Positions 1 through 6,330 of a stretch of 64,000 bases of DNA are shown one piece after another. The position numbers and the translations under genes are program-made. Within the stretch, counting starts at the first letter, position 1. Each line of letters starts with the position of its first letter. Source of the stretch: Candidatus Nanopelagicales bacterium (GTDB lineage: Bacteria; Actinomycetota; Actinomycetes; Nanopelagicales; Nanopelagicaceae); assembly GCA_030830475.1 (NCBI GenBank), contig JAURMX010000035.1, positions 1 through 64,000 of the forward strand, read 5' to 3'. Below the pieces are notes generated by a model. It saw only the letters and a program-made list of their open reading frames with translations, had not been told where the DNA came from and did not search any database.

Positions 1-36
1 GATGTTTCCGAGGAGGTGTTCCCGGGTCTGTTTTAG
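1..36 (+). CDS. mraZ: MraZ C-terminal end (partial, cut by window start)
   Basis: Frame 1 reads DVSEEVFPGLF and then a TAG stop at 34-36. Actinobacterial MraZ proteins, as I recall them, end in a similar acidic stretch closing with a Phe, and mraZ normally sits directly upstream of rsmH. MraZ is a DNA-binding regulator of the division and cell-wall cluster. Only 11 residues are visible, so the call rests on tail resemblance plus position. Confidence 0.6.
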   Translation, partial: DVSEEVFPGLF

Positions 37-63: not shown

Positions 64-240
64 GGTCAGGCCGCTCTCTTTTGTGGCCACCGCCGACCTT
101 CAACTAAACGGCGCCTCTTCCCCGGTGCCGTTTAACCCCCCCAGATCCGTCGGCCGGCGGTGACCAGAGCAGAGAGCAAGTTAAGAAAAGCAATTTGCAA
201 AAGCAAGCACCAAAAGAAGAACTAGAAAAGAAGGGGAAGA
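64..240 (+). promoter_or_regulatory. Structured rsmH (mraW) leader, likely mraW RNA motif
   Basis: The region between the mraZ stop and rsmH is unusually GC-rich and folds into three hairpins. H1 is 69-74/83-88 with loop TCTCTTTT. H2 is an 11-bp stem, 105-115/124-134 (one G-T pair), with loop TCTTCCCC at 116-123. H3 is 147-151/156-160. The H2 loop is the exact reverse complement of GGGGAAGA at 233-240, which is the rsmH ribosome-binding site plus the first base of its ATG. A conserved structured RNA called the mraW motif is known upstream of mraW in Actinobacteria; I infer that this is a member. The loop-to-RBS pairing would be a pseudoknot controlling translation of the cluster. Confidence 0.65.
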
Positions 241-1187
241 TGAAAATAGAGCACACATCAGTGATGCTAGATCGCTGCATCGCCCTTCTCGCTCCCGCAA
301 TTGAAAACGCTAAGACTCCAATAGTTGTTGATGCAACTTTGGGTTGGGGTGGACATTCATTGGCTCTATTGGAAAAGTTTCCCAATCTAAAGATTGTTGG
401 CCTAGATAGAGATAAAACCGCAATCGCTAAAGCCAGCTCTCGACTCTCTGAATATTCAGATCGCATCACAATTGTCCATGCGGTTTATGACGAGATGCCT
501 GAGGTCCTTAACTCTCTAGGTTTGAAAAATGTAGATGGCATTCTCTTTGACTTAGGGGTTTCATCAATGCAATTGGATCAAACTGAGCGTGGCTTCTCCT
601 ACTCTCAGGATGCCCAGCTGGATATGAGGATGGATCAATCCAAAGGGATAACCGCGCATGAGATTCTGGAGAGCTATTCCCGCGGTGAATTAATCAGAGT
701 TATCCGCGATTTCGGTGAGGAACGTTTTGCCGCCCGAATAGTCGACAACATCATCGCGCAGCGTGAGAAAGGTGGAATTCAGAGCACCGCTGAGTTAGTC
801 CAGATTGTTAAAGACAGCATCCCTGCTCCTGCAAGACGGGTCGGCGGCAATCCCGCCAAACGCACCTTTCAAGCTTTACGTATTGAGGTAAATCAAGAGT
901 TAGAGATCTTGCAGAGAGCAATACCGCGCGCACTTGAAAGATTAGAGATCGGCGGCCGAATGGTTGTGATGTCCTTTCAATCATTAGAGGACAAGATTGT
1001 TAAGCAGCTCTTCACTGCTGCAACTGAATCAAAAACTCCAGTTGGATTGCCGGTTGAAATCGCAGAGTTGGCGGCAAAATTCAAATTGGTTTTCCGCGGT
1101 AGTGAAAAGGCAAGCCAAGCTGAGATAACCGAAAATTCCCGTGCGCAATCCGTCAGAGTACGTGCGATCGAGCGGGTGGCGTTCTAA
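240..1187 (+). CDS. rsmH: 16S rRNA (cytosine-1402-N4)-methyltransferase RsmH
   Basis: SAM-dependent enzyme that N4-methylates C1402 in the decoding centre of 16S rRNA; 315 aa from the ATG at 240. The N-terminus MKIEHTSVMLDRCIALL fits the family's usual HxPVLLxE opening, followed by the SAM-binding stretch DATLGWGGHS, then GLDRDKTA and FDLGVSSMQLD. The C-terminal half carries the conserved NPAKRTFQALRIEVNQEL segment. A TTG at 195 would add 15 lysine-rich residues with no ribosome-binding site; the ATG at 240 has AAGGGGAAG just upstream and is preferred. It is the first complete gene of the dcw cluster, downstream of mraZ, and its stop overlaps the ftsL start (TAATG). Translation is probably controlled by the structured leader. 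Confidence 0.95.
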   Translation: MKIEHTSVMLDRCIALLAPAIENAKTPIVVDATLGWGGHSLALLEKFPNLKIVGLDRDKTAIAKASSRLSEYSDRITIVHAVYDEMPEVLNSLGLKNVDGILFDLGVSSMQLDQTERGFSYSQDAQLDMRMDQSKGITAHEILESYSRGELIRVIRDFGEERFAARIVDNIIAQREKGGIQSTAELVQIVKDSIPAPARRVGGNPAKRTFQALRIEVNQELEILQRAIPRALERLEIGGRMVVMSFQSLEDKIVKQLFTAATESKTPVGLPVEIAELAAKFKLVFRGSEKASQAEITENSRAQSVRVRAIERVAF

Positions 1188-4945: not shown

Positions 4946-6330
4946 TCAAAATGAATGCCGTCCAAGTTGCCCAGATTATTGAAGGAAGGCTCTCTGGCGA
5001 TGCTGAGCTCAAAAATGAATCAGGGTTTAAATTTGATTCTCGAGAGGTAAAAGCTGGAGATGTTTTCCTAGCGCTCTTGGGTGAGCATGCAGATGGGCAT
5101 AGTTTTGTTGATCAAGCTCTGCAACAAGGAGCGGTACTTTCAATAGTCTCGAAACCTGTAGCGGGTCCACATATTTTGGTTCCCGATGTTGTTATCGCGA
5201 TCGGAAAGCTTGCTAAATTTGTTAGGGATTCATTGCCAGAGTTAAAGGTAATTGGCATAACTGGTTCACAGGGCAAAACCACTACCAAAGATATGCTCCA
5301 TTCAGTATTGAGCTCTAAGGGTGAAACAATCGCAGCACAAGGATCATTCAACAATGATTTAGGTGTTCCATTGACTTTATTACGCGCAAAACCAACTACC
5401 CGTTTTTGCATCGTCGAAATGGGCGCACGGCACGGTGGCGATATATCGGCGTTAGCTAAAATCGCTAATCCAGATGTTGGCGCAGTACTTAAAGTTGGCA
5501 ATGCCCACCTTGGGGAGTTTGGCTCCAGAGAGAACATTGCCAAAGCAAAAGGTGAGTTGATTAACTCCTTGAATCCTGGCGCATTTGCAGTTTTAGGTAC
5601 ATATGACGAGTACACGCCAAAGATGAGCTTTGTGAGTGGGGTCCAGAAGTTAACATTTGGTGAATCACATGATTGCGATGTAAGGGCTGCCGACATTGAA
5701 TTTCGCGGTGGTTTTGCGCACTTTGATCTAGTTACGCCAGGGGGTAGAGAGCCGGTCGCTCTCCGAGTTATGGGATTACATCAGATCCCAAACGCCTTGG
5801 CCGCAGCGGGGATTTCACATGTTTTAAATATTCCAACGCAGAGTATTGCTTCTGCGTTATCTGAACATGAAGCTAGCAGTAAATGGCGTATGGAAACCCA
5901 TGATTTAAATGGAGTATTAATAATTAATGACTCTTATAACGCCAATCCCGAGAGCATGGAGGCGGCGCTAAGAACTCTGGTCTTGCTGACACAGGAAAGA
6001 GGTGGAAGGTCTTGGGCCTTCCTAGGATCCATGCATGAACTTGGCCCAGATGCCGCTCAAATGCACAAAAAGATCGGACAGTTGGTTGGCGAGCTGGGCA
6101 TTGATCAATTGGTCGCAATTTCAAATCTGGATTATTTAGATGGGTTAACTGAATCTCAAACTCAAACCCACTATTTTGGGAGTGTGGCTGAGGCGAATAC
6201 ATTGCAATCGGCCTTTGAAGCCGGAGATGTAGTTCTAATCAAAGCTTCGAGAGCTGAACATTTAGAAGAGTTGGCAAATGCTTTTATTAAAGCTCGACAG
6301 GTATATGGGGAAGAGGGGAGTACCAAATGA
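4942..6330 (+). CDS. murF: UDP-MurNAc-tripeptide:D-alanyl-D-alanine ligase MurF
   Basis: Last of the cytoplasmic Mur ligases, 462 aa, adding D-Ala-D-Ala to the UDP-MurNAc tripeptide. The three-domain layout is visible: an N-terminal substrate domain with [15 protein letters not shown], the P-loop [15 protein letters not shown], and a C-terminal domain with [15 protein letters not shown], a strong MurF signature. The start ATG lies in an ATGA overlap with murE. The end overlaps mraY in the same way, so murE-murF-mraY are very likely translated as a coupled set. A start at MNAV, three codons in, is also possible. Confidence 0.96.

Follow-up and report, generated by a model that had tools for sequence, protein, structure and literature searches.

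The window analysed here, a 64,000-nucleotide stretch of a Candidatus Nanopelagicales genome (contig JAURMX010000035.1), opens on the 3′ end of mraZ, and a gap of 203 bases separates this gene from rsmH, whose ATG lies at 240–242 (Table 1). Together the two genes open the cell-wall and division cluster, an arrangement that is near-universal, and mraZ encodes the transcriptional regulator of that cluster. MraZ (Pfam PF02381) was detected in almost every genome of the class, the exception being a Streptomyces-like family. An RsmH search of 60 near genomes and 247 genomes from the class supplied the rsmH leaders, of which 136 were read; gene starts were picked by a simple rule, and the genomes are related, so that the counts given below are non-independent. 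The window's family comprises mostly small actinobacterial genomes of 1–2 Mb and is probably acI-like, from freshwater. In three loci (L102, L128, and L135), CTTCCCCGG also occurs within the coding end of mraZ (E-V/I-F-P-G codons), directly before the element described below.

The existence of an RNA element in the leader at 71–179 is strongly supported. Across 43 distinct relatives, 18/29 pairs had changed on both sides, compared with 8.4 ± 1.4 in shuffles, none of which (0/500) reached as high a number. In the same relatives 98.1% of cells were paired, a share that dropped to 32–54% in slid versions, and the covariation score was 0.304 against 0.116 for shuffles and 0.05–0.08 for slid controls. 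The leader is therefore assigned to an RNA element, with 75–82 as part of its outer helix P1. The element extends beyond the structure described in the first-pass annotation of this DNA, an 11-bp hairpin with an 8-base loop. That hairpin itself proved exact when checked against the sequence: 105–115 (TAAACGGCGCC) pairs with 124–134 (GGTGCCGTTTA) through 11 pairs, one of them G·U (113–126), and the loop is fully unpaired in the predicted ensemble. By contrast, the neighbouring hairpin loop that had been placed at 75–82 gives way to the outer helix, in which 74–86 pairs with 164–176. The complementarity noted between TCTTTT in this stretch and AAAAGA at 226–231 is a by-product of purine- and pyrimidine-rich sequence, because 74–86 belongs to a helix with compensatory changes. 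On the 3′ side of the internal loop, UCCGU(C) was invariant in the window's family and equalled the terminal loop in fixity. A local fold hiding the ribosome-binding site (RBS) of rsmH via codons at ~284–290 was also considered and rejected; its coding-side sequence is limited to the nearest relatives and one distant row, so this fold is not a conserved rival to the element.

Table 1. Features at the mraZ–rsmH junction of the window (all coordinates refer to the 64,000-nucleotide stretch).
Feature	Position	Strand	Evidence
mraZ, 3′ end (upstream gene of the cluster)	1–36	+	Translation ...DVSEEVFPGLF*; same end in relatives
mraW-type structured RNA element (three stacked helices, one long hairpin)	~71–179	+	Covariation; R1 112.6 bits; RF01746 at 68–186
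Outer helix P1, 5′ strand (partner 164–176)	74–86	+	Compensatory changes at all six outermost pairs, e.g. UA to CG/GC, CG to AU
Middle helix P2, 5′ strand (partner 152–162)	88–98	+	Covariation alignment
Apical hairpin P3 (105–115/124–134; conserved core 107–115/124–132)	105–134	+	5/8 core pairs changed on both sides
Terminal loop	116–123	+	UCUUCCCC = TCTTCCCC; CUUCCCC at 117–123 invariant
Invariant UCCGU(C), 3′ side of internal loop	146–151	+	Columns T76–T80 of alignment A1
Middle helix P2, 3′ strand	152–162	+	Covariation alignment
Outer helix P1, 3′ strand	164–176	+	Covariation alignment
rsmH ribosome-binding region and A of ATG	233–240	+	GGGGAAGA, exact complement of the loop; complementary heptamer in 43/52 family genomes
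rsmH (16S rRNA m4C1402 methyltransferase, MraW family)	240–1187	+	PF01795, 359 bits

By place, fold, loop, and intermediates, the element is almost certainly homologous to the mraW RNA (RF01746), as a divergent mraW-type RNA and not a listed member by the Rfam rule. The first-pass annotation had named the mraW motif at this position in Actinobacteria; position and type were right, and a scan with the Rfam model gave 23.3 bits (E 0.11 for 3 kb and 0.01 for the whole genome), under the gathering cut-off of 50 bits. The element lies directly upstream of rsmH, the same place as in family genomes with a match. Its fold is a long two-part hairpin with a terminal CUUCCCC, the cmscan alignment sets loop on loop, and the covariation agrees. 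R1, a covariance model built from the window's family, provides the intermediates: it matched locus L060 (31.6 bits, E 2e-7), whose mycobacterium-like genome reaches 77 bits with RF01746 at this position, and it also found the element in other families. Within the window's family, R1 located the element before rsmH in 35/37 genomes searched (the window's own included), one per genome except in G016; most R1 sites also score weakly on the opposite strand. Two rsmH loci and two elements occur in G016, on contigs C27 and C53 (L130 and L006), and this assembly is probably a strain mixture. RF01746 exceeds its cut-off mainly in one family of the class (f4, Mycobacterium-like). Its match in a genome of another class (G328), where no rsmH context was seen, was taken as chance.

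Across Actinomycetia, few parts of the locus are as fixed as the loop. CTTCCCC was present in 132/136 rsmH leaders from 34 families, the four exceptions all being Streptomyces-like, and CUUCCCC in 77/79 mycobacteria; the stems around it change freely across leaders. Eight loci from several genera and families (L075, L098, L103, L104, L106, L120, L134, and L135) carry two tandem CUUCCCC hairpins in one outer stem, and in L135 the stems of the two have diverged around an identical loop. L343 is also among the loci with two tandem CUUCCCC hairpins or loops. The Streptomyces-like genomes (L088–L091, L328–L346) are without mraZ and have mostly lost the loop. Most of their leaders hold stem remnants or nothing recognisable, many keeping parts of the stem (e.g. 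CTGACGC-TTTT-GGCGCC in L089), and two exceptions, L343 and L346, keep the loop. These exceptions led us to reject a strict tie between loop and mraZ: the Streptomyces-like family (f19) mostly lost the loop but not in all its members, and a single loss of mraZ makes for a weak link. What the analysis establishes is the structure of the element and where it lies, its occurrence once per genome, and the fixity of its loop.

The loop is, in addition, complementary to the start of rsmH in the window, as the first-pass annotation had stated. We confirmed that its reverse complement, GGGGAAGA, occupies 233–240 with an 8/8 match that ends on the A of the ATG; the 8-base duplex was calculated at −13.1 kcal/mol. 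The match had been called striking. It is real, but as evidence by itself it is weak: 157 of 20 000 composition-preserving shuffles (0.8%) of the purine-rich stretch 206–242 also contained GGGGAAGA. On the window's sequence alone the octamer is thus unusual, not compelling, and because shuffles already hold it at this rate, comparative data are needed.

Within the window's family, the comparison revealed a loop-complementary heptamer (GGGGAAG, or GGGGGAG/GGGGAGG with one G·U, pairing over all seven positions) at the rsmH start of 43/52 genomes. It was steadier at the mraZ start (46/49; L003–L051, L125, L127), which lies beyond the edge of the window, and among genomes with both starts read, none lacked it at both genes. 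Other genes of the cluster had the heptamer in 3/201 cases, or 3/44 among those with strong Shine–Dalgarno sequences (SDs). When genes were ranked by duplex energy with the loop, mraZ and rsmH took ranks 1–3 of ~16 in most of 14 genomes, and out of 21 base orders of the loop, the real one ranked 1 for mraZ, 3–5 for rsmH, and 20 for other genes. Since the family has the standard 16S tail, GGATCACCTCCTT, GGGGAAG is no lineage-wide SD. Nor is SD spacing what is kept, since the distance from the heptamer to the ATG of rsmH varies from 0 to ~8 nt (in the window and the genomes closest to it, the two abut). Where retained, the heptamer has undergone only changes compatible with pairing. The rsmH complement has been lost beside an intact loop in a sister clade in the window's genus (L008–L014, also L129) and in L023/L024, and in these clades the mraZ complement is kept wherever the mraZ start is readable. 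Independent variation of loop and SD had been named in the first-pass annotation as what would speak against its model; the SD does vary, but the loop never does, which leaves no covariation between the two to be seen.

Three further observations concern the heptamer. GGGGAAG also occurs in the RBS region of mraY (window 6307–6313, tatatGGGGAAGaggggagtaccaaATG), where it is kept in the near relative L224 and may be a third site for the loop. In L015–L018, the rsmH start is ambiguous (ATGAAAGAGGGGAAGATG...) and the heptamer may fall inside the first codons; the second ATG reads ATA in L015. Switching of the exact GGGGAAG from one gene to another was set aside as independent evidence, given only ~2 changes on the tree.

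Outside the family, the complementarity is not seen. At the rsmH RBS the real loop ranked 19 of 21 permuted loops, with the motif in 4/40, and at the mraZ RBS it was middling (rank 11, motif in 21/57). For rsmH RBSs of mycobacteria it ranked 9, with an exact match in 1/70. Elsewhere in the mraZ mRNA or the rsmH leader, no class-wide cis partner stood out (real loop at ranks ~11–13 of 21). Loop–RBS pairing as a class-wide rule is ruled out by the permuted-loop ranks outside the family and in mycobacteria. The translational switch through the rsmH RBS that had been proposed for the window thus stands in part: the heptamer is kept in the family, but beyond it the match does no better than chance.

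We favour, at about an even chance of being right, an explanation that takes the leader for a divergent cis element of the mraW type, with a loop that is foremost a recognition site, joined in the window's family by a loop–RBS pairing that damps translation. The intergenic RNA folds into three covarying helices stacked in a single long hairpin, which presents the fixed CUUCCCC, and this loop would first of all be read by a putative factor, a protein or another RNA, in an old role common to the class. Recognition by such a factor would account for the class-wide invariance of the loop. In the window's family, the RBSs of both flanking genes, mraZ and rsmH, appear to have additionally become complementary to the loop. 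A 7-base helix between loop and RBS (predicted loop–RBS helices span −10.7 to −13.1 kcal/mol) could then occlude either RBS and reduce translation of the genes that open the wall and division cluster; both the pairing and its repressive direction are inferred. Such a translational switch is plausible in the window's family, but it is not what keeps the loop conserved, and the pairing looks like a lineage-specific addition to the older recognition role. Against a lock on the RBS, GGGGAGG and GGGGGAG would also serve reasonably as SDs, which may account for part of the signal through SD strength, and two clades within the window's genus have lost the rsmH complement while their loop is unchanged. 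Published data fit a role at the RNA level and are undecided between the readings. In Corynebacterium, mapped 5′ ends of rsmH mRNAs fall inside or after the motif (PMC3890552, PMC5784534), so some of these mRNAs would lack the hairpin.

The strongest competitor, which we consider possible though unlikely, dispenses with cis pairing altogether: a protein or small RNA would read CUUCCCC everywhere, and the RBS complementarity in the family would be a by-product of strong purine-rich SDs. It agrees with a loop that stays invariant across 33 families on stems that vary, with the missing cis partner in mraZ mRNA and rsmH leader outside the window's family, with the diverged tandem stems around the same loop in L135, and with the Streptomyces-like genomes, which mostly lost the loop although stems persist. 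Mycobacterium tuberculosis, moreover, makes a 30/60-nt RNA (RNA 1359) from the region upstream of mraW (PMC3526491). Recognition in trans by itself leaves unexplained why the heptamer marks mraZ and rsmH and so few of the other strong-SD genes, and why CUUCCCC is the best of 21 orders for mraZ in the family. More doubtful is a single loop with two cis targets in the window's family, which would pair in turn with the mraZ and rsmH RBSs and set their ratio, on top of an older recognition in trans.

That the loop exists for the rsmH RBS, as a one-partner switch for rsmH, is improbable. This model of the first-pass annotation draws on the 8/8 complement in the window and on the heptamer in most family genomes, but the ranks and motif counts for rsmH outside the family and in mycobacteria go against it, as do the loops kept despite loss of the rsmH complement (L008–L014, L023, and L024), an mraZ RBS that is an equally good or better partner, and the tandem loops of eight loci. 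We give similarly little credence to an element for processing or stability, in which the hairpin would be a cleavage site (e.g. for RNase III) or a barrier to decay between mraZ and rsmH, with a loop that does no more than stabilise the fold. Its location between the two genes would suit this role, and RNase III reportedly acts on the mraZ mRNA of C. glutamicum, in the coding region to judge by the title of a 2016 study by Maeda. The 5′ ends of C. glutamicum rsmH mRNA that lie inside the 3′ strand (PMC3890552) also suit it. If the loop were merely structural, however, it would not have remained CUUCCCC in almost all species, and the Streptomyces-like genomes keep stems while swapping the loop for UUUU/UUCC-type sequences. 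A match by coincidence between pyrimidine loop and purine-rich RBS, a reading to which the shuffled octamers lend some weight, is very unlikely within the family, where 43/52 relatives keep the heptamer at changing distances from the ATG and other genes rarely have it.

In the literature searched, no mechanism for mraW RNA was found, and a search on the loop sequence and on C-rich-loop RNAs returned nothing relevant. The present analysis proposes a concrete loop–RBS pairing for one family. Such pairing cannot explain the loop in general, and this suggests a putative binder at the start of a near-universal gene cluster. With mraW RNA, the element of the window shares the place before rsmH/mraW in Actinobacteria, the long hairpin with its CUUCCCC loop, and an outer stem of the form GGcC...GACC. 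It differs in its stem sequences and in a 3′-side insertion around UCCGUC, invariant in the window's family, and this family is further set apart by RBS complementarity at both mraZ and rsmH. Among regulatory RNAs with C-rich loops, such as the actinobacterial 6C RNA, C-rich hairpin loops can pair with G-rich ribosome-binding sites; 6C RNA is a free small RNA, whereas the mraW-type element here is part of an mRNA, in single copy, before rsmH. In its treatment of the mraW motif, the 2010 survey (Weinberg et al. 2010, PMC2864571) marked a switch role as uncertain (‘?’), and the passages of its main text consulted describe no loop–SD pairing for this RNA. The msiK RNA motif (RF01747), as presented in the same survey, is likewise an actinobacterial leader hairpin with a suggested RBS-masking mechanism, but its RBS is itself part of the basal stem, and gene and structure are different (PMC2864571).
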